A stretch of DNA of 64,000 bases from an uncultured delta proteobacterium (GTDB lineage: Bacteria > Desulfobacterota > Syntrophia > Syntrophales > Smithellaceae): assembly GCA_903907985.1 (NCBI GenBank), contig CAIVQG010000043.1, positions 1 through 64,000 of the forward strand, given 5' to 3'. Each line of letters opens with the position of its first letter. The first letter of the stretch is position 1. The translations under genes and the position numbers were made by a program. Below are positions 15,661 through 56,108 of this stretch, in pieces. The notes below the pieces were generated by a model that ran no database searches, was not told the origin of the DNA, and was given only the letters and a program-made list of their open reading frames with translations.

Positions 15661-15699
15661 GTCGTTTCCGGGTAGCAATAAGTGCCGGAGTTTCCTGAA

Positions 15700-18600
15700 A
15701 TGAAAGATGAATCCAAGACAAAAAAGCAACTGATAAGTGAACTTGACGAATTGCGCCGGCAGTTAGCCCATGTGCAAAGCTCTGCAGAGGAATTCCAACA
15801 GCTGAAGGAAAGTAATGAGAAGTTTGTAAAAGCTTTCCTGCAAAACTCGATTCCCATGGACATCACCCTGTTAAGAAGCGGGAGATATGTTGACGTCAGC
15901 GAGGCTTTGCTAATATTTATGGGGCGAAGAAGAGACGAAGTCATAGGGAATACTGCTACTTCCTTAGAATTAATTACTGAAGAACAAAAATCAATATTTC
16001 TTAATGAACTAAACTCGAAGGGCCGGGTGGAAAACCTGGAACTGCAAGTTAAAACAAAAGGCGGAGAACTGAGAGACGGATTATTCAATGCGGTAATGAT
16101 GACTCTCAACAATGAAAAGTATCTGTTGACAGTGATGGCAGATATCACCGATCGCAAGCGGGCGGAAAAGACGCTGCACGAGAGCGAGGAGAAATCCCGG
16201 GCTTTGACGGAAAGCACATCCATGGGCATCTACCTTATTCAGAATAATAAATTTGTCTATATCAATCCGTCCTTCCAGTCCATCACCGGTTATTCGCAAA
16301 CTGAACTGGACGACATGCTTTTTTGGAACATCGTTCATCCTGATTTTCGGGAAATGGTTAAGGATAGAGGGATCAAACGTCAAAAAGGAGAAGAGGTGCC
16401 GCAACGGTATGATTTTAAGATCATTGCCAAGGGCGGGCAAGAAAAGTGGATTGACCTGTCAGTCACATACATCGACCTGAATGGCAAACCAACCATAATG
16501 GGATCAATGTCTGACATCACTGAGCGCAAGCGGATGGAGGATGCGTTACGGGAGAGTGAAGTGCATGTCCGGACAATATTGGAAAATGCACCACTGGGTA
16601 TCGTAAATTATGATAAGAACGGAGCGATAATCGACTGTAATGCAAACTTTATCCAACTGATTGGTTCATCTCGCGAAGCTCTCCTCGGTCTGAATGTTCT
16701 GAAACTGAAGAACGAAGATGTAGCAAATGCTCTGCGTATTTCTCTTAATGGACATATATCAGCAGTGGAAGGTGAATATCGTTCTTACACGGCCGATAAA
16801 GTTACAAAAGCGAGAATGGTCTGCGCCCCATTTTTCTCGCAGAAGGGAGAGATCACTGGAGGAATTGCGATTACCGAAGATATCACTTCCCGCAGAAGGG
16901 CGGAAGAGGCGCTGCGAGAGACGGAAGATAAATATCGCCTGCTGGTGGATAATGCCAGCGACATTATCTGTCGGACGGATTCCCGGGGATACTTCAATTT
17001 TTTGAATCCCGCCGCCATGAAGTTCACCGGGTATGCCGAGGCCGATCTTATTGGTAAACACTTCAGTGAGCTCATTCATCCCGACTGGCGTGCCGATGTG
17101 GAGCGATTCTGCGGCCGGCAGTTTGTTAAGAATATTCCCAGCGCTTGTTATGATGTCCCCCTGCTCACCAAAGATAATAGACAGGCCTGGTTGGAACAAA
17201 ATGTCCAGCTCATCATCGATAATGGTCAGGTTGTCGGCTTTCAGGCCATTGCCCGCGACATCACCGATCGCAAGCAGGCTCAAGAGGCGCTGCGGGAGAG
17301 TGAAGAAAAATATCGGGCCATCCTGCAAAGCATTGAAGACGGCTACTTTGAGAGTGATTTAGCCGGATGCTTTACCTTCTTTAATGATTCCCTATGCAAA
17401 ATATTAGGATATTCCAGAGATGAATTGATAGGGATGAACAACAGACGGTTACTGGATAAAGAAAATGCCCGAAAAGTATTTGCAATATTTAATAAAGTGT
17501 ACACGACCGGAAAGGCTTACCGACCATTTGAATGGAAGTTCATCACCAAGGAAGGTGTCGAACGTTTTGCGGAGAGCTCTATATCGTTAAAGCGGGACAG
17601 AGAAGGCCGGCCGACAGGATTTCAGGGTATTGTGCGCGAAGTTACTGAGCGCAAGAGAATGGAGGATAAGTTGAAGGAGAGCGAGGAGAAATTCCGTATA
17701 CTCATGGAATCTTCCCCTACGGCCTTCCTGATGTACCAAAACAATACGTGGGTATATGCGAACCCCGCAGCAACGGAGATCACAGGCTACACTAGTCAGG
17801 AGCTCCGGGACATGCCTTTCGCGTACTTTGCACACCCCGATGACAAAGCAATGCTTCAGGAGCGGGCCCAAAGGCGTCAAAGAGGCGAAATCAAGACAAA
17901 TCTCCGTTATGAGGTCAGAATTATTGCTAAAGACGGCACTATCAAATGGATCGATCTTTCCAGTACTTCTGTCTTCCACAAAGCCTGTCCTGCCGGAGTA
18001 GTTTCGGTTGTGGACATAACCGAGCGAAAGCGGATGGAAGCAGAATTGCTCAAAGCCCGGAAACTGGAGTCTGTGGCTACCCTGGCCGGGGGGATCGCCC
18101 ATGATTTCAATAATCTGCTGGCGGGAGTTTATGGCTATATTGAAATGGCGCAATTGGATCTTCCTTCCGGGAGCCGTGCCCATGACTACTTACTCGCCGC
18201 CGAGAAATCAGCAAAACAGGCGGCAGATCTGACCAAACGCCTGATTACATTTGCCCGAGGAGGGGGGCCGGTAAGGAAGCAAAGTGACATTGGTGAACTT
18301 GTCAAAGATACAGTCCAAAGGGCTTTGATAGCGATACCAGTGGAAAAGAAAGTCGTCGTGGCCGATGACCTTTGGACGGCGGAAATAGATGCGGGTCAGA
18401 TTCGCCAGGCAATCATAAGTATAATAGCCAATGCCGTGGAAGCGATGCCGGAAGGTGGTTTGCTTACAGTCAGCGCCCAGAATGTAATCGTGTTCCCCAA
18501 CCAACTCCCGGTGTCTGAGGGGCCATATGTGCGGATTACAGTCAGCGACACGGGAGGAGGTATCTCGGCGGAAGATTTGCCCCTCATCTTCGATCCCTAT

Positions 18601-19065
18601 TTTTCCAGAAAGCAAAGGGGAACACAAAAAGGAATGGGCATGGGTCTGTCAGTTTGTCACTCTATTGTCAGCAAGCACAACGGCTGTATCAGCGTAGAAT
18701 CGACACCGGGCCGGGGAAGCTCTTTTTATGTCTATCTTCCCGCGATTACCAGGGTAAAATCAGAGGAAAGAGCGCCCCGCCAGCAAAGTATGCTGGATGT
18801 CCAGAGGCGAATTCTGGTCATGGATGATGAAGAGGTGATCCGGGAGATGATTGAGGAATTATTAAAAACCATGGGCTGCCAGGTGACAACAGTACAAGAT
18901 GGTCTCTCGGCTATTGACTTGTATATAAAAGCCAGGGAAACAGATCAATCTTATGATCTGCTAATCCTTGATCTGACGATTAAGGGCGGGATTGGCGGTG
19001 TGGAGACCATGAAAAGACTCCGGGAAATTGATCCCGAGGTCAAGGCGATCATCTTCAGTGGCTAG
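15700..19065 (+). CDS. Six-PAS hybrid histidine kinase, receiver domain cut by in-frame TAG
   Basis: Cytosolic sensor kinase (no membrane helices). After an N-terminal coiled coil come six PAS repeats, then HisKA with His in GGIAHDFNNLL (codon 18100-18102), a HATPase domain (NAVEAMPEGG, DTGGGIS, GMGMGLS) and a receiver with acceptor Asp in LLILDLTIKGG. The frame stops at TAG 19063-19065 after IIFSG. The same frame then continues without interruption to TAA 19171-19173, reading TDDPVIENYTQYGFRG and MKPFNREEL, which is the missing end of the receiver including its conserved Lys. Relatives and the sibling kinase at 38648 have Tyr at the TAG. Start ATG 15700 is chosen over GTG 15682 because GGAG (15687-15690) is spaced for it. 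Confidence 0.9.
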   Translation: MKDESKTKKQLISELDELRRQLAHVQSSAEEFQQLKESNEKFVKAFLQNSIPMDITLLRSGRYVDVSEALLIFMGRRRDEVIGNTATSLELITEEQKSIFLNELNSKGRVENLELQVKTKGGELRDGLFNAVMMTLNNEKYLLTVMADITDRKRAEKTLHESEEKSRALTESTSMGIYLIQNNKFVYINPSFQSITGYSQTELDDMLFWNIVHPDFREMVKDRGIKRQKGEEVPQRYDFKIIAKGGQEKWIDLSVTYIDLNGKPTIMGSMSDITERKRMEDALRESEVHVRTILENAPLGIVNYDKNGAIIDCNANFIQLIGSSREALLGLNVLKLKNEDVANALRISLNGHISAVEGEYRSYTADKVTKARMVCAPFFSQKGEITGGIAITEDITSRRRAEEALRETEDKYRLLVDNASDIICRTDSRGYFNFLNPAAMKFTGYAEADLIGKHFSELIHPDWRADVERFCGRQFVKNIPSACYDVPLLTKDNRQAWLEQNVQLIIDNGQVVGFQAIARDITDRKQAQEALRESEEKYRAILQSIEDGYFESDLAGCFTFFNDSLCKILGYSRDELIGMNNRRLLDKENARKVFAIFNKVYTTGKAYRPFEWKFITKEGVERFAESSISLKRDREGRPTGFQGIVREVTERKRMEDKLKESEEKFRILMESSPTAFLMYQNNTWVYANPAATEITGYTSQELRDMPFAYFAHPDDKAMLQERAQRRQRGEIKTNLRYEVRIIAKDGTIKWIDLSSTSVFHKACPAGVVSVVDITERKRMEAELLKARKLESVATLAGGIAHDFNNLLAGVYGYIEMAQLDLPSGSRAHDYLLAAEKSAKQAADLTKRLITFARGGGPVRKQSDIGELVKDTVQRALIAIPVEKKVVVADDLWTAEIDAGQIRQAIISIIANAVEAMPEGGLLTVSAQNVIVFPNQLPVSEGPYVRITVSDTGGGISAEDLPLIFDPYFSRKQRGTQKGMGMGLSVCHSIVSKHNGCISVESTPGRGSSFYVYLPAITRVKSEERAPRQQSMLDVQRRILVMDDEEVIREMIEELLKTMGCQVTTVQDGLSAIDLYIKARETDQSYDLLILDLTIKGGIGGVETMKRLREIDPEVKAIIFSG

Positions 19066-19173
19066 ACTGATGATCCGGTGATCGAGAATTACACTCAGTA
19101 TGGTTTCCGGGGTGCGCTGATGAAACCATTTAACAGGGAAGAATTACGGACCATCCTGGAAAAAAAATTGTAA
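19066..19173 (+). pseudogene. C-terminal receiver remnant, in frame after the TAG
   Basis: This 35-codon piece continues the hybrid kinase frame past the TAG and supplies the beta4-alpha5 part of the receiver, with the conserved LMKPF Lys. Its conservation shows that the interruption is recent or is read through. It has no start or ribosome-binding site of its own. Confidence 0.8.
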
Positions 19174-22059: not shown

Positions 22060-25000
22060 TTACTTCACCCCCTTCTTTGCAACATTGACCATGAAAGCTT
22101 TGCTTTCCGGGATCATGGTGTTAGCGTCACCAATGGTCGATGTTAAAATATTCGCCGCATCACCGAAGGTGTGTACTTCCGGCTTCTTGTCATTTGGTTC
22201 ATATTTCCTGTCGGCCGTCGTGATCCAGCCATAATGCCAGGGAATGCCAACCTCATGAATTGTGTTTCCATCAATGTTAAATGGTTTGAAACGGGGAGTG
22301 ACTATCGCCGTTGCTTCTACTTCGCCCCGTGCGGACTTAACTATGCACTTATCTCCGTTGACAATACCTCTTTCTTTGGCCAGTTCCTGGCTCATCTCTA
22401 CAAACATGCCCGGCTGCATTTCCGCCAGCCACGGACACCAACGGGTGAGAACACCGGTTTGCCAATGCTCGCTGACACGATAAGTTGTGCCGATGAAAGG
22501 GAAACGCGGATCACAAGTTGTCACGCCGGAATAAACATCCATATCGGAACCGACGCCGCTGGCGTCGAACCGTTTAATGACCGGATTGTTCTTCTGCGGC
22601 GACATGATATTCTTCTCCACAGGACACTCCATCGGTTCGTAGTGTTCGGAGAAAGGACCGTCGGCTAAGCCCGGACCATAGAGACTAGCCACACCGTCCG
22701 GTTTCATGATAAACGGCGGCCGACCGGAGCCGGGATTACCGACACCATCGGGAACATCACCGGTCCATTTTTCACCATCCCATTTGATAACCGCCCGTTT
22801 AGGATCCCAGGGGTTACCTTTAGGATCAACCGAAGCGCCATTGTAAATAATGCGGCGGTTAATCGGCCAGCACCATGCCCACTCGGAATGCAAACCGATG
22901 CCCGAGGTATCTTTGGAAATTCTGCGCATGGCGAGATTAGCTTTTTCATTAACGGAACCGCAGTAAACCCAGCAACCGGAAGAAGTGGAACCATCAGCCT
23001 GGAGCCAGGCGAAAGTCGGAACAAGGTCTCCCTTTTTAAATTCCTTGAACTCACCTTTTTTCGTCGGATTTTCCAGCTTCTTATCTTCCAGGAAATAGCC
23101 ATTAATCTCCTTGGCTACTGTGCGGGGTTCGTAATGGAATTCATGACCTACTTTTTTGCCATATGGCCAGGTAAGTTTCGTGATCGCTTCCTTCAGCGGA
23201 CCGCCCTGCTTGACGTAGAGATCCTGAATCTTGAAGTGAAGCTCGCTCATGATATCCCCATCCGGCTTGGATGAACCAACCGGATTGATGGCCTTATAGC
23301 GCCACTGCATTAAACGGCTGCTGTTGGCTATGCTGCCCTCCTTTTCGATAGAAGAAGCGGCGGGAAGCATAAAGACTTCCGTCTTGATTTTGGTGGGGTC
23401 CATTCCCGGACCGCGCCAGAAGGAGCCGGTTTCGTTGTCAAACAAGTTGACATTAACCATCCAGTCGAGTTTGGTCATGGCCTGGCGAGTTTTATTGGAA
23501 TGGGCACCGCTACAGGCCGGATTCATGCCCCAGGCAAAGAAGCCGGTGAACTTGCCTTTATACATCTGGTCGAAGATCGTCAGCCATGAATAATTCCCGC
23601 CGTCATCGAGTTTGGGCATAATTTGATAGGCATCATCAATGGTCAGATTTGTTCCGTACATGGAACGCAGGAAGCTGGCCGAATATTTGGGAGTATTTTT
23701 CCACCAGTTAAGGCTGTCTTTCTCCTTGGTTTTCGGAGTCCGCTTTTCATTAAAATCTTTAAGTGTCTTTAGTGATGCCGTAGGAGCACCCAGATAGCCG
23801 GGCCAGATATGGAACAAAAGCCCGTGATCAGTAGAACCCTGAACGTTGGATTCACCTCTCATGGCTGCGACTCCACCGCCGGCGATACCCATGTTGCCCA
23901 GAAGCAGCTGGATGATGCACATAGTCCGGATATTTTGCACACCTACAGTATGCTGCGTCCAGCCCATCGCGTAAAGCTCAACACCGGCTTTGTCCGGTTT
24001 TCCCGTGGAGCCGTAAATTTTGTAAACTTCCAGAAGTTTGTCTTCGGGTGTTCCGGTGATCCGCGAAACAAGTTTCGTATTATAACGGGAATAGTGTTTT
24101 TTCATCAGCTGGAAAACACAGTTGGGATCTTGCAATGTCTTGTCTTTTTTAATGACCCCTTCTGCGTCCGTCTGATACGACCAGGTGTCTTTTTCATACT
24201 TGCCGGACACCAATCCGGAAAACACACCGTTATTCTCTCCCGGCATTTTAAATGCCGGATTCACCAGGAAAGAAGCATTGGTGTAGCTGACAACATATTC
24301 ATGGTGAATCAGATTTTTATCCAGTATAAATTTGATCATACCGCCCAGGAAAGCGATATCGGTGCCTGATCGCAGGGGGGCATAGAGGTGAGCTTTAGCA
24401 GCCGATTGCGTGAACCGTGGGTCCACACAGATCAGTTTTGCGCCTCTCTTGTCGATAGCCTCCTGGATCCACTTGAAAGCAACAGGATGGTTGGAAGCCG
24501 GATTGCTTCCCATAATCAGAATTACGTCACTGTTTTTAAAATCATTCCAGTGGTTGGTCATTGCGCCGCGTCCGAACGACTCTGCCAGAGCCGGTACAGT
24601 TGGACTGTGTCAGATGCGGGCCTGATGTTCAATATAAACAAGGCCCAACCCCCTCAGGAATTTTTGGTACGTAAAGCATTCTTCCAGGTCCATCGCCGCG
24701 CTGCCGACAGAAGCAATACCCTCTGTACGATTGACGACTTCTCCTTTATCGTTGGTCTTCTTAAAGCTGATGTCTCTGCTTTTCTTCACGTTTTTAGCGA
24801 TTTTGTCCAGTGCCCATTCCCATTCAACTTCTTTCCACGCAGTAGCGAAAGGAGCGCGGTAAAGCGGTTTGCCCAGACGATTCTCGTTGACGGCCATCTG
24901 ATAGATCGAACCGCCCTTGCTGCACAGAGAACCTTTGTTGATGGGACTATCGGGATCCCCCTCGGTATTGATGACCTTGCCGTCGCGCACGGATACGATA

Positions 25001-25167
25001 ATACTGCATCCCACGGAACAATAAGGGCAAACGGTAGTGGTTTCTTTGGCGTACTTGATTTTCAAGGGCTGGGCGTGAGCGGCGATCGGTTTAAGGCTGA
25101 TGCCTAACCCGCTTGTTGCCACCACAGCTCCGGAAATCTTTAAGAAACCTCTTCTGGTGACGTTCAT
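22060..25167 (-). CDS. fdnG: Formate dehydrogenase alpha subunit, selenoprotein (periplasmic, Tat-exported)
   Basis: Catalytic molybdopterin subunit that oxidises formate to CO2 in the periplasm. A Tat leader (TRRGFLKISG) opens the 1035-codon frame, followed by a 4Fe-4S motif CPYCSVGC. At codon 186 an in-frame TGA (24610-24612) stands within IEHQARI-U-HSPTVPALAESFGRGAMTN. E. coli FdnG has selenocysteine at exactly this place, so it should be read as Sec and the 185- and 833-codon frames are one gene. A bSECIS-like stem-loop follows the TGA. The family's molybdopterin-dinucleotide-binding region ends the protein. Ribosome-binding site GGAGAAGG. First gene of fdnGHI. Confidence 0.95.
24579..24600 (-). 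promoter_or_regulatory. Candidate bacterial SECIS element of fdnG
   Basis: Directly after the TGA, minus-strand ACTGTACC and GGCAGAGT form an imperfect stem around a GGCTCT loop. The position and the GG-U-type loop resemble the E. coli fdnG SECIS. The stem has two mismatches, so it is weaker than the one in the second formate dehydrogenase. Confidence 0.5.
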
Positions 25168-27479: not shown

Positions 27480-28244
27480 TTATAATATCAAATTCACAAA
27501 GTGCAGATAGGGCCGCAGGGCTGGAGTTCCTCCACCCTCCGAGATAATCTGGAACGCTCGCCCGGTATCGGCGACGCGAGCGCCGCCGAGGTGCGTGACC
27601 GGCGTATCTTGGAAAATTGCAGACTGTAGCGGTGTGGATGGTCCCAGAAGAACGACGGAGCGTGGCTTGCCCAGACAGTTAATAGTTTCCTCAAAGGTGC
27701 CATTTAAAAGTGTGGTGGCGGTGATGATCGCGACATTGCAATCCCGGAGCGCTCGTTGTTTTTCCGCCGCCGAGAGCAATTCCAGGCGTTGAGGATTTTT
27801 TTCGATCACCGTCAGGATGGCGCCGGTAGCCCGGATTCGTTCCGTAAGCGGTGCGAATAGTCCAACCATGGCTACTTTTTCGCCAGGCTGAAGGTTTAAA
27901 TAGCTGGTTGCTTCACGATCTTCCCTGCTGTCGGCAGAACACTTGATGAGGGCGTTGGCCGTAGCCAGGCCGATGGCCAGATGTAGGGAGTTTTTGCCGG
28001 CAATAAGACATTTCAGTAAATGGGACGCATCAGTACCGGCGCAGCGGCTTCTGTCCGGTAAAACGGTGCGGTCCCCGTGTGCAACGTCTGGCAGGATTGC
28101 GGCGATACCAGCCACATGATTATCCAGTTTCACCCCCACATAACTTAATCCTACGCACAGATCGGCAATCCGCCTTTTTTTTGCCGAGGATTCTGTTTTT
28201 TTGTAAAGGCGCTTCAGGGTATCGCCTAGTTTGAGCATTGCCAT
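27480..28244 (-). CDS. DUF4213/DUF364 family putative heavy-metal chelation protein
   Basis: A 254-residue protein of the DUF364 group, annotated as putative heavy-metal-chelating and often found beside Mo/W or metal-uptake genes. The N-terminal half includes RIADLCVGLSYVGVKL. The C-terminal DUF364 half has a Rossmann-like VAMVGLFAPL segment, a strand ILTVIEKNPQ and the typical NVAIITATTLLNGTFEETI and VVLLGPSTPL blocks. It is the last gene of the run fdhA-modABC-fmdE-DUF364, 6 nt after the FmdE gene. The function is not established; a part in Mo/W handling is inferred from the neighbours. Confidence 0.8.
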   Translation of the reverse strand: MAMLKLGDTLKRLYKKTESSAKKRRIADLCVGLSYVGVKLDNHVAGIAAILPDVAHGDRTVLPDRSRCAGTDASHLLKCLIAGKNSLHLAIGLATANALIKCSADSREDREATSYLNLQPGEKVAMVGLFAPLTERIRATGAILTVIEKNPQRLELLSAAEKQRALRDCNVAIITATTLLNGTFEETINCLGKPRSVVLLGPSTPLQSAIFQDTPVTHLGGARVADTGRAFQIISEGGGTPALRPYLHFVNLIL

Positions 28245-31097: not shown

Positions 31098-33800
31098 CTA
31101 TTTAAGTTTATCAATCCTTACGGCGCAAGCTTTGTATTCCGCTGTCTGGGTAATCGGGTCATAGACCGGATTGGTGAGCCAATTGGCGCAGGCTTCCCGG
31201 AAATGGAAGGCCATCCAGACCAGTCCCTGCGGAACCTGCGAGGTTACACGAGCCTTGACTGTGACCTCACCGCGCCGCGATTTTACGGAAATCATCTCTC
31301 CGTCGGCAATGCCCTTGGACTCGGCATCTGCTGCGGAGATATCGGCTGTTTCTTCACTTAGTAATTCATTAATACCCTGGCAACGTCCCGTCTGTGTCCG
31401 AGTGTGGTAATGGTACAGACGTCTTCCGGTGGAGAGCACCATTGGATATTCTTGATCGGGAACTTCCGCCGGTGGTATCCAGTCGATGGGTTTGAGCACG
31501 CCCAAGCCGCAGGTAAAACAACCATCCTTATGCAGCGTAGCGGTGCCGGGATGATCTTCGCTGGGAGCCGGCCACTGGATTCCGTCATTTTCCAGTCGGG
31601 CATATTTTATTCCGGCCAGCGCCGGAGCGAGCACCGATACTTCGTTATCCCATATTTCCTCGGCACTATCCGATTTCCATTTGTGTCCCATTCTCTTGGC
31701 TATTTCTTTGAATATCCACCAGTTGGGCTTGGCCTCGCCCGGTGGTTGACTAACCGTGCGCACGCGGTTGACGCGCCTCTCCGAACTGGTAAAGGTGCCG
31801 TCATTCTCACTCCAGGCTGCCGCCGGCAGTATTACATGCGCAAAACGCGTTGTTTCTGTAGGGAATATATCCTGACAGACCAAAAATTCCGCCGATTCCA
31901 GGCAATGTTCAACATGATGAATATCCGGCTCGGTGTTGGCCAGGTTCTCACCGAAGACATAAAATGCTTTAATTTTTCCGGTGGTCAAACCTTCCATCAT
32001 CGTGGGCATCATCATGCCGGGCTTATTGGGAAGAGATTTAACTTTCCATGCCTTCATAAATTTCTCTTGAGCCTGCGGGTTATCGACCTTTTGATAGCCG
32101 GGAAAGACATTAGGCAGCGCGCCCATATCGCAAGCGCCTTGAACGTTGTTCTGGCCGCGCAGCGGATTGACGCCGCCGCACTCAAAACCAACATTGCCCA
32201 AAAGCATCTGGAGATTGGCGCAGGACATAACGTTGTTTACGCCACAAATATGTTCGGTGATACCCAGGGTGTACATCAGCATTGCCGGTTTGACTGCGGC
32301 CAGCCTCCGGGCAAGATTACGAATCGTATCGGCGGAAACGCCGCTTATTTCGGCAGCGCGTTCGGGCGGATACTCCAACACCTTCTTTTTGAGCTCATCA
32401 AACCCCATCGTGCAGGAGTCAACATAATCTTTGTCGTAAAGATTTTCGCTAATGAGTACATTCATGACACCATTGATCAGAGCCACATCGGAGCCGACTT
32501 GAATTTGCACATGAAGCTGAGCGAAATCCACCAGATCCGTACGCCTAGGATCGACAACGATCAACTGGGCGCCGCCAACGGCTGCGTCTTTCACAAATGT
32601 TGCAGCAACCGGATGCGCTTCGGTCATATTGGAACCGATGACCAAGATCATCTTGGCCTTCATAAAATCAGCAAAAGAATTGGTCATTGCACCGGACCCG
32701 AATGAAGTCGCGAGACCCGCGACAGTGGGAGCGTGTCAGGTACGGGCGCAGTGATCGATGTTGTTTGTTCCGATCGCCGCGCGGAAAAGTTTCTGCATTT
32801 GATACGAATCTTCGTTGATGCTGCGGGCGCAGCTGACACCGGCAATGGCGTCCGGGCCGTCTTTTTTAATAATCTCTTTGAATTTTTTGGCGACCAGATT
32901 GAGGGCTTCATCCCAGGAGGCCTCGCGGAACTCTCCATTGGTTTCCCGAATCAGCGGTGTTTTAAGCCTTTCTGCGGAATAAATAAAGTCGTAGGCGAAA
33001 CGGCCTTTCACGCACAAACGGCCCTGATTGGGATGGGCGTCTTCGACGGCGGTGATTTTGGCAATTTTGCCGTCATGGACATGCAACCACTGTTGGCAAC
33101 CCACGCCGCAGTAGGGGCAGGTGGTGCGGATTTTCTTCGTTTCCCAGGGGCGGCCCAGGCCTTTGGCTTTCTTCTCCGTGAGCGCACCAACCGGGCATAC
33201 TTCCACGCACTGGCCGCAGAAAACGCATTCGCTTTCATCGTAGGGTCTATCGCCGCCGGTGACAATTTTGCTTTTTGCACCGCGATAGCCCTGGGAAATT
33301 GCCCGATTGACAACCAAGTCATTACAGGCCTGTACACAACGTCCGCAGAGAATGCAACGACTGAAATCGCGGACGATAAAGGGATTTTGATCCTCCGTCG
33401 GATAAATATCCTTTTCATCCTTTTCTTTAAATCGCAGTTGAGTAATTTTATAGAAATAGGCCAGATCTTGCAGGCGGCAATTGCCGTTGGCTTCGCACAT
33501 CAGGCAGTTATGCCTGCCGCTCGCCAGCAGTAACTCGACGTTCATTTTTCTGGCACGATGGACAAGATCGGTATCGGTGAACACTTCCATTCCCGGCGAT
33601 ACCGGTGTGGAACAGGCCGCCATCAGTGATCGCGCGCCTTTAACCTCGACGAGGCAGATCCGGCAGGAACCGGTGGGCGAAGCACCCTTCAGATAGCACA
33701 GAGTAGGAATTTCAATCCCGCCATTGCGTGCCGCATCCAGAATCATTTGTCCCGGTTTAAATCCGGTCTCTTTCGAGTTTAGAATAAATGTGTCGTTCAT
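31098..33800 (-). CDS. fdhA: Formate dehydrogenase alpha subunit with NuoG-like N-terminus, selenoprotein
   Basis: Cytoplasmic-type formate dehydrogenase catalytic subunit (no signal peptide), 900 residues. The N-terminus has a 2Fe-2S domain (CYLKGASPTGSCRICLVEV...MAAC), a His-Cys FeS site HNCLMCEANGNC, two ferredoxin sets (CILCGRCVQAC and CVFCGQCVEVCP) and the CPYCGVGC cluster of the molybdopterin domain. Codon 355 is an in-frame TGA (32736-32738) in [27 protein letters not shown], the exact Sec site of the family. A near-ideal SECIS hairpin follows. The NuoE/NuoF-like or HydB/C partners such enzymes usually have are absent nearby. Ribosome-binding site AGGAGAA. Confidence 0.95.
32707..32723 (-). 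promoter_or_regulatory. Bacterial SECIS hairpin of fdhA
   Basis: On the minus strand GTCGCG and CGCGAC form a perfect 6-bp stem closed by a GGTCT loop, starting 12 nt after the TGA. The E. coli fdhF SECIS has the same GGUCU loop and a similar distance (11 nt), which supports SelB binding and Sec insertion. Confidence 0.9.
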
Positions 33801-38647: not shown

Positions 38648-41600
38648 TCAGTCCAATACCTCCCGAACCTTGCCGGCGAGTTCATTCAGGCGAAAGGGTT
38701 TTTGGATGAAGCCATTGCAGCCGCGATTCATGATTGTCTGGGCTTCTCCATTGAGGCTGTAACCACTCGAAAGAAGAACCCGGATTAGCGGATTGATTTC
38801 CCGGAGGTGATCAAATACCTCGGAGCCCTGCATTCCCGGCATGATCATGTCCAGAACAATCAGGTCTATTTTGTCTTTCTTCTCCATGTAAACAGCAATA
38901 GCCTCTTGACCGCTGCCGGCCGCATAGACCTTGTATCCCAGTGTCTCCAGAAGTTCCTTGTTGACTTCCAGAACTGTAATTTCATCATCCACCAGCAGGA
39001 TCGTTTCCGTGCCCCTGACGATTTTCCCGGCTGCCGTCTTTTCCTGCATCACGTCCTTTTCCGATGCGGGCAAATAGATGGTGAATGTTGTTCCCTGGCC
39101 GGGTTCGCTTTCCACATTGATTATGCCCTGGTGCCCTTTAATGATTCCATATACTGTCGCCAGTCCCAGACCGGTACCTCGTCCCATTTTCTTCGTTGTG
39201 AAAAATGGTTCGAAGATGCGCTCTCGAGTCTTCTCATCCATTCCTATGCCGGTATCGGTTACTGTTGTTTTCACGTATTTCCCCGGCTGCACGGAGTAGA
39301 GAAGAGCTTGCTCAGCGTTCAAAAGAACATTCTGGGTAGCAAGATAGATATTCCCACCCCCAGGCATGGCTTGCCAGGCATTTACATACAGATTCAAGAA
39401 TACCTGTTCCATTTGTCCGCGGTCAACTTCCACGCTCCAGAGGTCTTTGCCCGATTGCCGGTGAAGGGAGATTTCTTTTTTTGTTCTGCCGAACATGGAG
39501 GATGTATTTTCAAGAATTTCGTTCATGTCGGTGGGCTTGATTTCATATCTTCCCCCACGGGCGAACCCCAGAAGTTGCCGGGTTAAATCAGCCCCGCCTT
39601 GCACCTGTTCCTCAATTCGTAAGAGCATCTCATAAGCAGGATCATTTTGACTTAGGTGTCGCAATATCAGTGAAGCATAGCCCTGAATCCCCATGAGCAG
39701 ATTATTGAAGTCATGGGCGATGCCACCGGCCAGGATGCCTATAGCTTCCATCTTGTCTGCCTGCTGCAGGCGCTCTTCCAGAAGCCGTTTGTCTTCTGCG
39801 GCCTGCTTTCTGTCGGTAATATCTTCTGCCACTCCTTCTATCCAGCCCTTAGCAGGAATTAGTTTAGCGGAAAAACGAATCCACTTGACTGAGCCATCGT
39901 TACGTCTGAACAATGCTTCATAGTTATCGCACTGACCATGCTCCTTTATGATTGCCAGCAGCTTCTTCCGAGCTGACGGATCAGCGTATCGTTCTGCAAT
40001 ATTGAAGTTGCCGGACAAAAGCTCTTCCCGATTTTTATATCCGACAAAGCGAGCATAACTATCATTGGCTTCAAGCACTATGCCTGTTGTCGTATCTGCC
40101 CGATATATTCCGATCTGAGCATTCATAAAAATGTTTCGATATGTTTCTTCTGCGGCTTTCAATTTTTCTTCCGCTCGCTTGCGGTCGGTGATGTCGGTCA
40201 AAAAACCTTCCAGATGCAAAGGAATGCCGTCGGCAGACCTGATGGCTCTGGAGTTCAGGGAAATCCAGCAGATACTGCCATCTTTACGGTGCATTTGTGC
40301 TTCAAAGCCATTCACGGCTCCCTTTTCATTGATCAATTTCAAGTATTCTTCGCGCGCTTCGGGGCTGACATAAAGCTGCCTGCGGATATCTGTCACCGCA
40401 GCCATCAGGTCGTCCGGTGATTCATAGCCGAGAATATGGGTGAAGGCAGGGTTGACGCTCAGGAAACTACCATCCATAGTGGTCTGAAAAATACCTTCCA
40501 CGGCATTCTCGACAATGGATCGATAATTTTCTTCAGCCTCCCGGCGTTTTGCCTCCACTTGCAGTCGCTTCGTTATATCCCGACCGGCAAAGATAGCACC
40601 TATAGCTTTCCCTTGTGAATCAGTCAATAATCGGACTCTGAGTTCCATTGGTATATAGTACCCATCCTTGTGCCGTGTCCTCGTTTCAAATATTATTTCG
40701 CGCCAATTTTGCTTAATACCATCCAGGTAAATTTGCGCAATCCGTTCCAGATCATCCGGATGTGTAAGGCTAAGTCCTTTAATGCCAATCATGTCTTCAG
40801 GGTCATATCCAAGAGTTTCTCTGTACGAGGGCGTCACGTACTGATATGCGCCTGTTGAGTCCACTAAAGAAACGCAATCCGACATGTTTTCTGTGATCAG
40901 ACGTAATTTCTCTTCCGACTTCAACAGTAACTCTTCGGCCTGTCGGCGCTTCTCTCCTTCCGAGATGATAAACCAGGCTTTGAACCCAAAGTAAGCAAAT
41001 ACAACTCCAGCCAGCAGCAGAAAAGCGATGAGTACGATGAGTTTGTCCCGGAAATCCTTCAGAGAAGAGAGAATTTCCTCTTCCGAGGAGGCAACAACTA
41101 TCGACCAGAAAGTATTCCCGATTTTTATGGGCGTGTACACGGCATTTTTCGTGACGATCTCTACCTTATTCCCCCGGATGTTATCAAAGGTGTAGGTGGT
41201 TAAGCCCTGATGACCCTTGAGCATATCTTCGGCCATGACCAGGATAGAGGGAAAATCCTTACAGTTATCAAAAACAGATTTCCCGGTATGGCCGGGAACG
41301 GGGCAGTATAGTTCCGTGCCATCCCGGCTGATCATCCAGGCATAGCCCGTATTCCCTATCTTTATGTCTTCGAGGTATCGCTTTGCCAGAGCCTGAAAAT
41401 TGACAGTGATGGCAATCGTGCCCTGGTAGGTATTGTTCCTGAAAACGGGAACATGGATGGCAACCGTGTCGTATCCTTGTACAGCGAAAAATACATCACT
41501 GACAACGGGCTTATGAGTGCTCATAATCTCGCGGACATGCTTCTGGTTAGAGATATTTCTACCGATGGCGTCGCGATTAAAAGGAAAAGTGTAAATAATC

Positions 41601-41911
41601 ACGCCTGCTGCATCTACACGGGTGATCGCTTTGATCTTGTCCTGATTTACCCGAAACAGGAGTTTGATGTCTTCTTTGCCCTCCTTGTCCATATCGATGA
41701 TCGGGTCCGATTCCGCCAGGGCGTTCAGGGTACGCGTCCAGTTGTCAAAAAAGTCTTCTATACCCCGTGCCGCCTGCCGGGCATGGATAAACTGTTCGCT
41801 ATTAATACGATTGACGGCTTCCCGTTTGGCCTGGTTATAGAAGGAAGTGAAGAGAAAAATACAAATTCCCAGCATCACAGCAAGGAAAAGAAGCCTGTAC
41901 CGAAGTTTCAT
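38648..41911 (-). CDS. Cache/PAS hybrid sensor histidine kinase
   Basis: Membrane sensor kinase, 1087 residues from ATG 41911 (RBS AGAAGGGG); the longer frame from 41947 lacks a signal. A first membrane helix (YRLLFLAVMLGICIFLFTSFY) and a second at about residue 310 enclose a double-Cache periplasmic domain. Three PAS domains follow, then HisKA with GGIAHDFNNLLMGIQGY, HATPase with NLYVNAWQAMPGGG, DTGIGMD and GTGLGLATVYG, and a complete receiver with VLDMIMPGMQGSE and GFIQKPFRL. The receiver has SSGYS, with Tyr encoded TAC, where the kinase at 15700 carries TAG. Ligand and output partner unknown. Confidence 0.93.
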   Translation of the reverse strand: MKLRYRLLFLAVMLGICIFLFTSFYNQAKREAVNRINSEQFIHARQAARGIEDFFDNWTRTLNALAESDPIIDMDKEGKEDIKLLFRVNQDKIKAITRVDAAGVIIYTFPFNRDAIGRNISNQKHVREIMSTHKPVVSDVFFAVQGYDTVAIHVPVFRNNTYQGTIAITVNFQALAKRYLEDIKIGNTGYAWMISRDGTELYCPVPGHTGKSVFDNCKDFPSILVMAEDMLKGHQGLTTYTFDNIRGNKVEIVTKNAVYTPIKIGNTFWSIVVASSEEEILSSLKDFRDKLIVLIAFLLLAGVVFAYFGFKAWFIISEGEKRRQAEELLLKSEEKLRLITENMSDCVSLVDSTGAYQYVTPSYRETLGYDPEDMIGIKGLSLTHPDDLERIAQIYLDGIKQNWREIIFETRTRHKDGYYIPMELRVRLLTDSQGKAIGAIFAGRDITKRLQVEAKRREAEENYRSIVENAVEGIFQTTMDGSFLSVNPAFTHILGYESPDDLMAAVTDIRRQLYVSPEAREEYLKLINEKGAVNGFEAQMHRKDGSICWISLNSRAIRSADGIPLHLEGFLTDITDRKRAEEKLKAAEETYRNIFMNAQIGIYRADTTTGIVLEANDSYARFVGYKNREELLSGNFNIAERYADPSARKKLLAIIKEHGQCDNYEALFRRNDGSVKWIRFSAKLIPAKGWIEGVAEDITDRKQAAEDKRLLEERLQQADKMEAIGILAGGIAHDFNNLLMGIQGYASLILRHLSQNDPAYEMLLRIEEQVQGGADLTRQLLGFARGGRYEIKPTDMNEILENTSSMFGRTKKEISLHRQSGKDLWSVEVDRGQMEQVFLNLYVNAWQAMPGGGNIYLATQNVLLNAEQALLYSVQPGKYVKTTVTDTGIGMDEKTRERIFEPFFTTKKMGRGTGLGLATVYGIIKGHQGIINVESEPGQGTTFTIYLPASEKDVMQEKTAAGKIVRGTETILLVDDEITVLEVNKELLETLGYKVYAAGSGQEAIAVYMEKKDKIDLIVLDMIMPGMQGSEVFDHLREINPLIRVLLSSGYSLNGEAQTIMNRGCNGFIQKPFRLNELAGKVREVLD

Positions 41912-42413
41912 TTTATACCCCTTCTGAAGGATCGTTCCAACTAACATCCCTACCCGTGATTCAGGGCCTAGTTCATGATTGCCTCAAGATTCATGGTGCA
42001 GACAGTTCTCGCTTCCAGAACGAAAGCGCTTCGCTCTAATGCAGGACTGCCCGGATGTTCTGCTTGGATAATGAATTTTCTTCGAGGAGTTCTTGATTTG
42101 TTCCGGGTTGATCTTTCATCTGCTGCTCCCCTGTTGTTATAAGCGATAAGGCTTGTAAGCAAGAAGGAACGATAATAGGAAAAGGCAGGGACATTTGCCT
42201 TGCCATACAGCTGTTGTCATTGATTTAATCCGCGAATTATCCCTCGGTGCCTGAATTTTGATGATAGCAATTCACGGTAGAACTATAAGAAACTCGGTCT
42301 TGTAAGTCAAGGGAATATTGGCCAGAGGACGAGGGGATGTCGTGTTGCGGGAGAAGGTGATTTGCAGAGGTATTAATAGTCAACAATTATAGCGCTTTTA
42401 TTTAGAATCGGGA
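41912..42413. other. Intergenic stretch, no recognised feature
   Basis: No gene, RNA or strong repeat is seen between the kinase start and the alr stop. A 64-codon minus-strand frame at 41968-42162 has no supporting signal. The kinase promoter (minus strand) presumably lies in the last 200 nt. Confidence 0.4.
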
Positions 42414-53911: not shown

Positions 53912-54364
53912 CTATTTCTCATCTTTGGGAAGAATAACAATTTCAAACCAGTAATCTCTGAGCCGTTGGATGGCGACCATCAGGCCGTTAAGATCAACCG
54001 GTTTATTAATATAACTGTTTGCACCCTCTTCATAGCACTTTTCAATATCGCGCTCATCACTGGAAGTGGTCAAGACAACTACCGGTATTTTTTTCAGAAG
54101 AGGATCATTTTTTATCGCCTTTAACAGATCTCGTCCGTCCAGCCCCGGCATGTTCAAATCGAGAAGAATAATTCCCGGCCGGGGCGATTTTATCGGATCA
54201 GCATAAGCGCCGCGGCGGTATAAATAATCAAGCGCTTCTTCACCATTTTCACAACGATTGATGGAATTGGCCAGTCCTGCTTTTCGAAAAGCACGCACTG
54301 TTGCTTCATAATCTTCCGGACTATCCTCAATAATTAAAATCGTTTGATTTTGCTTAATGGACAT
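53912..54364 (-). CDS. CheY/Rcp1-like response regulator
   Basis: 150-residue single receiver of the Rcp1 type, commonly found beside phytochrome-like or other histidine kinases. ILIIEDSPEDYEATVRAF, acceptor Asp in GIILLDLNMPGLDG, TTSSDERD and KPVDL are all present. ATG 54364 is chosen over 54451: MSIKQNQTILIIE is the natural N-terminus, and the longer frame would overlap the kinase deeply. It overlaps the kinase 3' end by 11 nt. Confidence 0.9.
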   Translation of the reverse strand: MSIKQNQTILIIEDSPEDYEATVRAFRKAGLANSINRCENGEEALDYLYRRGAYADPIKSPRPGIILLDLNMPGLDGRDLLKAIKNDPLLKKIPVVVLTTSSDERDIEKCYEEGANSYINKPVDLNGLMVAIQRLRDYWFEIVILPKDEK

Positions 54365-54977
54365 TTTTTTCTCCTTGCAGGGTAAAATAAAAGGTTGTGC
54401 CTTCTGCCGGCATTGATTCCAGCCATATTCTCCCGCCGTGGCGCTCGACAATCTTTTTTACGATGGTTAGCCCCGCGCCCGTTCCGCCACCAAACATATC
54501 CCGGGCATGTAATCTCTTGAAGATAGTGAAGATGGAAGTAAAAAATTTCTTATCGATGCCGATGCCGTTATCCCGAACATAAAAAGTATAATTATTGGTG
54601 GACGCACTTTCATCGTTATTATAGCCGATTTCGATCCATTTGTCAGTTTTGTTATTGTATTTAACGGCATTCGATATTAAATTTTGCCATACTTCCTCAA
54701 TCTGGTGATTATCACATTTTACTGTGGGCAGGGACCGGGGAATGCGGATGTCAACATGCTCTTTTTCCAGAAGTGGTTTGAGGATGGTTAGAGCATCTTT
54801 CACCACCTCATCTATTTCTGTCTCCGTCAGCGATAGAGAAACTCTGCCGACTCGCGAGAATTTAAGCAGATCGTTGATAAAATCTTCCAGTCTTTTCGTA
54901 AGATAAACCAATGTTTTCAGCTTGTCCTTACCGTCATTATCCAGTTTGTCTGTATAGTCTTCCAGCAGGAAGGAAGA
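54354..54977 (-). pseudogene. C-terminal catalytic part of histidine kinase, in frame after TAG
   Basis: This part continues the frame of the 54978-56108 gene beyond the TAG. It begins SSFLLEDYTDKLDNDGKDKL and continues to LVYLTKRLEDFINDLLKFSRVGR, i.e. the rest of HisKA, and then the HATPase domain (EEVWQNLISNAVKYN, VRDNGIGID, GTGAGLTIVKKIVERHGG). Without it the upstream gene has no kinase activity. An internal Met (54911) could give a short product but no strong ribosome-binding site is seen. All catalytic motifs are intact, so the break is recent or bypassed. Confidence 0.82.
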
Positions 54978-56108
54978 CTAATTATGAATTCCCCGCAGTG
55001 GCTCTTTCAAGTCATGGGAAGCGATGTAAGCGAAATCGTCGAGCTCTTTATTGCTGCGTTCCAGTTCCCGGGCTGTGAGGGCAATCTTTTCCTCGGATTT
55101 TTTGCGCTCCGCAATTTCGATATTCAATAACTCATTGATATTGATTAATTCTTCGGATTGCTTTTTTACTTTATAAATGAGCTGGGCATTGATGATCGAT
55201 CCGATAATCGCAATTAGTACGGTTATGATTATTATCACGGTAAAGGTTATGTTTATTTGATATAGGAGGCTGAAAGCTTCTCTTGAATTCTTGGATACAA
55301 CTACACCCTGCGCAAAGTCTTGCAGCGGGATAAAGACAAATATTTTTTCTTGATTATCATCAGGATCTTTTCCTTCGTAAGTTCCTTCTTTGCCCTGAAG
55401 CAGCATTTGCACTTCCGGTCGTTCTTTATAGTCGACAAGCTTGTCAAATTTGATTCGGGAATGATAAAACACATGACCGTGTTTATCGACAATGTAAGTG
55501 GCGATCTTCTTGCCAAACATTTCCGGCTGGATTGTTTTTTCCAGAAAATCAGATGCTGGAACTACATTCATAATAGCAAGTAATTTGCCATTATCTCGTA
55601 TGGGGATACTGAAAGAAAATGTGTATCGCTGTGGTTTTGCCTGAGTTAAGAAAAACTCGGATACTCCCGGCTTTCCTGTTTTTATGGCAAGCTGATACCA
55701 ATCCCTGTTACTGAAATCAAAGCCGATTGAACTTAGGGTAAGTAAGCCTGAGTGAATTACTATTCCGGCGGGATTGGTTATTACAATACGATCTATATCC
55801 GGAATACCTTCAATAAAGGATTGCAGATGCTGCGTAACTTCTTTTGTCTTGCCTTTTTTTATCGCCGCTATTAATAAAGGCCTCTTGGCAAAAGTAGATG
55901 CTGTCGCAATTGTTAATTTTATTCTGGACTCCAGTGCGTGAGCTATGGCACGGCCTTCAATTTTTTGAACCCGGATGCTTTCCTCTTTTAAATAATTTAA
56001 TAAACTGAAATTGATAAAAACGCTCAGTGCGACTATCGGCAATAAAGCAAAGACCAGATAAATGGCAATTATTCTAGGTTTTGTTTTGGTTAAAAAGTTA
56101 TTGAGCAT
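54978..56108 (-). CDS. Membrane sensor histidine kinase, N-terminal part ending at in-frame TAG
   Basis: 376 codons: a membrane helix, a dCache-like periplasmic sensor (residues about 40-280), a second helix (FTVIIIITVLIAIIGSIINAQ), a coiled coil and the first half of HisKA with the phosphoacceptor His in YIASHDLKEPLRGIHN. It then meets TAG (54978-54980). Kinases of this type continue with NYSxFLLEDY, so the stop replaces the Tyr. The following codons keep the frame through the whole catalytic domain (54354-54977), giving 584 residues if read through. First gene of an operon with two response regulators. It may be a pseudogene, a polymorphism or a readthrough gene. Confidence 0.88.
   Translation of the reverse strand: MLNNFLTKTKPRIIAIYLVFALLPIVALSVFINFSLLNYLKEESIRVQKIEGRAIAHALESRIKLTIATASTFAKRPLLIAAIKKGKTKEVTQHLQSFIEGIPDIDRIVITNPAGIVIHSGLLTLSSIGFDFSNRDWYQLAIKTGKPGVSEFFLTQAKPQRYTFSFSIPIRDNGKLLAIMNVVPASDFLEKTIQPEMFGKKIATYIVDKHGHVFYHSRIKFDKLVDYKERPEVQMLLQGKEGTYEGKDPDDNQEKIFVFIPLQDFAQGVVVSKNSREAFSLLYQINITFTVIIIITVLIAIIGSIINAQLIYKVKKQSEELININELLNIEIAERKKSEEKIALTARELERSNKELDDFAYIASHDLKEPLRGIHN

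Follow-up and report, generated by a model that had tools for sequence, protein, structure and literature searches.

In-frame TAG codons in two sensor histidine kinases of a Smithellaceae genome are most likely young nonsense mutations

Where TAG is translated as pyrrolysine, the genes that bear it are usually those of methylamine methyltransferases, and here they encode kinases. Among the Deltaproteobacteria there are organisms that use pyrrolysine (in the part of PMC8318568 drawn on here), and in-frame stop codons are frequent and short-lived in bacteria at large, according to the sections of PMC7918605 (2021) that we have used. A literature search for premature stops, amber codons or readthrough in the receivers of histidine kinases gave nothing related. 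We have analyzed 64,000 nucleotides of DNA from an uncultured member of the Smithellaceae (this whole stretch is the window), in which two kinase genes each carry an in-frame TAG. The first kinase has a single in-frame stop in a gene that is intact in relatives, as expected of a nonsense-interrupted gene. We consider it likely that its TAG replaced a tyrosine codon by a recent nonsense mutation, in a sensor kinase that evolves fast and is expendable. Taking both kinases together, they are most likely young nonsense alleles, whether fixed, polymorphic or mis-assembled.

In the first kinase the TAG directly follows the sequence IIFSG, and the frame then remains open for 35 codons before the next stop, exactly as a sequence-only reading of this DNA had described. 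That reading had called the protein a six-PAS hybrid kinase, and Pfam indeed finds six PAS_9 stretches followed by HisKA, HATPase_c and a receiver. When the receiver is read through the TAG it matches PF00072 with 77.7 bits over positions 1-110 of the 111 in the profile, compared with 49.2 bits over positions 1-77 if it is ended there. The tail, which keeps the motifs TDDPV, QYGFRG and MKPF, therefore finishes the receiver as had been claimed; it is genuine receiver sequence and not an open frame arising by chance. An intact sibling kinase in the window has TAC at the matching position (38759-38761), also in agreement with the earlier reading. The coordinates of all features are collected in Table 1.

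Table 1. Positions of the interrupted kinases and of the features compared with them
Feature	Position	Strand	Basis or detail
Six-PAS hybrid histidine kinase, ended at TAG	15682-19065	+	1127 aa, from the GTG start of the mechanical ORF list
In-frame TAG at Tyr position behind FSG motif	19063-19065	+	sequence and homolog alignment
Tail behind the TAG, 35 codons that finish the receiver, up to TAA 19171-19173	19066-19173	+	open frame
C-terminal receiver domain PF00072 holding one TAG	18811-19158	+	81.9 bits
Intact sibling hybrid kinase, TAC at matching Tyr	38648-41947	-	ORF and sequence
Second interrupted kinase, dCache_1-HisKA-HATPase_c read through TAG	54354-56108	-	Pfam
In-frame TAG at aromatic (Tyr/Phe) position early in HisKA	54978-54980	-	sequence and homologs
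Perfect 9-bp inverted repeat, 8-nt loop, first three bases TAG	54955-54980	-	fold z -3.73
Third hybrid kinase, single TAA inside receiver, frame otherwise intact	G000:C22:5296-5625 (L095)		
Formate dehydrogenase-N alpha, in-frame TGA 24610-24612	22060-25167	-	TIGR01553 read through
Formate dehydrogenase alpha, in-frame TGA 32736-32738	31098-33800	-	TIGR01591 read through

Close homologs of the first kinase were sought in 59 genomes, and three were positive besides the source genome. The codon at the site is TAT in a congener (G003) and TAC in two genomes of the same order, so that the look at relatives proposed with the sequence-only reading found TAY and no stop. The congener kinase is an ortholog by position, being followed by a cytochrome b561 gene and then formate dehydrogenase genes as in the window (88% and 97-98% identical, respectively); the VKOR gene that adjoins the kinase in the window is absent there. 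Over 45 homologous loci the residue at the site is tyrosine in 43, asparagine in one and lysine in one, which upholds the claim that family members have tyrosine after FSG or SSG. No stop lies inside the aligned receiver at any of these loci, and no in-frame stop is shared across species at this position in any homolog examined. When receivers were compared with those of the congener, stops occurred only in the two from the source genome among the matches listed, out of 240.

The tail is identical to that of the congener at 25 of its 35 residues. Over the 391 codons before the TAG the comparison gives dN = 0.163 and dN/dS = 0.267, and over the 35 codons only that follow it dN = 0.164 and dN/dS = 0.223; relaxed selection past the stop is thus not seen over this short length. 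A tail released from constraint for the whole of the branch should have a higher dN, so either the stop is younger than the branch or translation still reaches the tail. The lack of relaxation makes an old pseudogene less likely and leaves a young nonsense allele unaffected, and intact constraint in the tails would also fit readthrough. From these comparisons the first TAG appears to be a young stop, where recent is judged against other species.

The kinase itself is evolving rapidly, its dN of 0.16 against the congener comparing with 0.07 for the cytochrome b gene and 0.01 for formate dehydrogenase; a gene at 27480-28244 has about the same value as the kinase (0.16). As a separate observation, the formate dehydrogenase segment at 22060-24561 is 97.8% identical to its counterpart in the congener (L160:2934-5432) with a dS of 0.21, while the nearby kinase is 71% identical with a dS of about 0.6. 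The high identity and low dS of the formate dehydrogenase suggest recent transfer or recombination.

If the TAG is truly present in the organism, as we infer, then release factor 1 (RF1) would end translation there, and we expect that the truncated kinase is made, with only the usual low leak past the stop. The predicted product retains the sensor and the catalytic core intact, together with the phospho-acceptor half of the receiver. The part lost is what we take to be beta5, the conserved lysine and alpha5, and a receiver without these elements should not switch.

The sequence-only reading had also stated that a second kinase in the window shows the same thing, and this is borne out. Here the TAG lies within GIHN*SSFLLEDY with 207 open codons behind it, and if the protein is ended at the stop no HisKA or HATPase_c match is left. 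A stop at this point is predicted to give a dead kinase. All 29 homologous loci have an aromatic residue at the site (tyrosine in 14, phenylalanine in 15) and none has a stop; the homologs reach no more than about 46% identity, which leaves no proven ortholog among them. Seven homolog matches had been flagged as containing stops. We rejected these as interior stops because they fall at the C-terminal end: in six the aligned kinase core is free of stops, and in the seventh the stop is its natural end.

The second TAG forms one end of a perfect inverted repeat. With a tyrosine codon in its place, the longest perfect repeat passing through that base is 5 bp. When the third base was changed to G in each of the 277 tyrosine codons of the window, a perfect arm of at least 9 within 150 nt resulted at just one, and there the arms are more than 100 nt apart. 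The second TAG was probably generated by a template switch correcting a quasipalindrome at an imperfect inverted repeat. There is no inverted repeat of that kind at the first TAG.

Examination of the whole genome places the two kinases in a broader pattern. Two of its 88 receiver domains contain a stop, one being the first TAG and the other a TAA in a third hybrid kinase on contig C22; none of the 59 HATPase_c domains does, the TAG of the second kinase preceding that domain. A search for kinases gave 144 matches, four of which held stops. These comprise the second kinase, the genuine TAA on C22, and matches on C47 and C58 that we rejected as interruptions since the stop is a natural kinase end or the match bridges into the next gene. 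The TAA on C22 lies in LDVA*DLL, at a position where, by eye, the sibling kinase from the window carries lysine. Since TAA interrupts this kinase, and at a position other than tyrosine, the pattern is specific neither to TAG nor to tyrosine, and this points to nonsense decay rather than a TAG/tyrosine code. At least three kinases of this genome thus carry one clean nonsense codon each. Changes of tyrosine to TAG make up 5.5-8.4% of the stop-creating single changes per gene (computed after seeing the data), and finding two of them within a single 64-kb window is slightly unusual.

Interrupted genes were surveyed in 464 kb, made up of the window and 20 sampled stretches (400 kb outside the window, from a genome of 3.41 Mb). 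This gave 91 candidate pairs of open segments, of which only pairs lacking a stronger rival frame were listed and judged by eye. Apart from the two kinases and two probable selenocysteine sites, the listed pairs were rejected as antisense shadows or as ordinary adjacent genes with a start codon close to the stop. The 400 kb sampled outside the window contained no further gene clearly broken by a nonsense codon, and the two TAG kinases therefore cluster.

A first alternative is that the stops are not in the organism's own genes, which would have tyrosine and be intact, and that the TAG is an assembly or sequencing error or the base of a minority strain. The source is a draft genome of 83 contigs with a contamination estimate of 4.52, and the undecayed tail of the first kinase is what such an error would leave. 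Against this, three separate kinases are each hit by a single clean substitution with the frame kept, and the 400-kb sample contains no general excess of interrupted genes. We consider this explanation unlikely, yet the most serious of the rivals.

The ability of the cell to decode TAG bears on the remaining alternatives. The best match to pyrrolysyl-tRNA synthetase (PylS) in the genome scores 29 bits, where the cut-off is 178.15, and at E 1e-15 there is none in 39 genomes of the family, the source included, under conditions where the positive control, Methanosarcina acetivorans, passes. In a survey of tRNA genes with RF00005, in which 150 of 162 candidates were scored, there were 46 matches, 45 of them given an anticodon. 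The search for an amber-suppressor or pyrrolysine tRNA that had been suggested earlier came up empty, as none of the 46 has the anticodon CUA, and the sole tRNA-Tyr found carries GUA. RF1 is intact (538.6 bits against a cut-off of 423.25), and TAG terminates 79 of the 428 coding segments in the 464 kb sampled. The median extension to the next stop is similar for the three codons, at 17 codons for TAG (n = 79), 15.5 for TAA (n = 214) and 13 for TGA (n = 133). TAG thus serves as an ordinary stop in this genome, with neither the avoidance of TAG nor the loss of RF1 that would accompany sense reassignment.

Two tRNA-like sequences were rejected as suppressors. One, of 35.7 bits (L046:194-265, at G000:C57:100193-100264), is not called by ARAGORN, and by eye its loop reads GCT, not CTA. 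It also seems to have a poor anticodon stem and no U33, and is possibly a degenerate tRNA. The other is a second tRNA-Sec-like gene, whose anticodon is TCA (L151:1501-1593, minus strand, at G000:C40:42026-42118; 51.8 bits, cut-off 47). It is flanked by a cysteine desulfurase/selenocysteine-lyase-like gene and yedF, and could represent a non-standard tRNA-Sec that acts in selenium metabolism.

A second alternative is functional readthrough, whereby a leaky TAG would give mostly truncated protein and a little full-length hybrid kinase as a dosage device. It would account for a tail under no less constraint than the sequence ahead of the TAG and for TAG at tyrosine or aromatic positions in two kinases, and in-frame stops have been proposed as a short-term regulatory device in the part of PMC7918605 consulted. 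Against it, TAT in the congener shows that such a device is not conserved, and unless its TAG were read through the second kinase would be inactive. We computed folds for six stretches at four sites. At the first TAG they are unremarkable (z = 1.06 over 47 nt and -0.74 over 101 nt), while a strong hairpin starts at the second (z = -3.73 and -2.13); with six stretches folded, one strong value is a picked result. That hairpin encloses the stop codon itself, and would presumably be melted by any ribosome whose A site is occupied by UAG. We regard functional readthrough as improbable; were it true, sensor kinases would join a small set of bacterial genes under leaky stops.

The sequence-only reading had left truncation and readthrough side by side. 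The former gains from the TAT of the congener, the prevalence of tyrosine, the lack of stops in homologs and the constrained tail, while nothing positive was found for readthrough: TAG is used as an ordinary stop, RF1 is present, and neither PylS nor a CUA tRNA turned up. A broader form of the leaky-stop idea, that the lineage tunes several sensor kinases by amber codons at aromatic positions so that receiver-less and full-length proteins coexist, is a speculation that we would give little credence; the reader of TAG would then probably be a near-cognate tRNA-Tyr or tRNA-Gln. Dedicated amber decoding, by pyrrolysine, by a tRNA-Tyr(CUA) or other suppressor, or by code reassignment, could draw on the tyrosine or tyrosine/phenylalanine positions of both TAGs and on the pyrrolysine users among Deltaproteobacteria, but given the PylS, tRNA and RF1 results above it is extremely improbable, and pyrrolysine is rejected.

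The window provides its own contrast with the nonsense alleles that we favor for the kinases. Two formate dehydrogenases are full-length when an in-frame TGA is read through, scoring 1320 and 824 bits, both above the cut-offs, and a tRNA-Sec is present in the genome (77.4 bits). On this evidence, and on the motif that characterizes the selenocysteine site of such enzymes, these codons are very probably selenocysteine sites. Plain ORF calling splits both genes in two at the TGA. In a look for a SECIS hairpin behind each TGA, a scan of the window gave no Rfam family at gathering score, and the 47-nt folds from each TGA have z = 0.49 and -0.70. With two TGA codons very probably recoded and two TAG codons most likely not, this locus is a clean example that an open frame past a stop is no proof of recoding.

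The locus resembles the dual code expansion of Deltaproteobacteria, as far as described in the part of PMC8318568 used here, in having in-frame TAG together with selenocysteine decoding in one genome. It differs from the pyrrolysine users there in that neither PylS nor a CUA tRNA was found, and TAG is abundant as a stop. The second TAG is like the quasipalindrome template-switch mutations in the part of PMC7202029 considered, in that it makes an imperfect inverted repeat perfect. Unlike in those systems, the event in the second kinase is deduced from the repeat, and the first TAG has no such repeat. The closest likeness lies with the interrupted genes in the sections of PMC7918605 that we have used. 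The large-scale part of that study employs stops present in at least two genomes, whereas here there is one genome with an ortholog in a congener lacking the stop. Like the cases described there, the first kinase has a single in-frame stop, here TAG, in a gene that is otherwise intact and constrained, consistent with a short-lived interruption.
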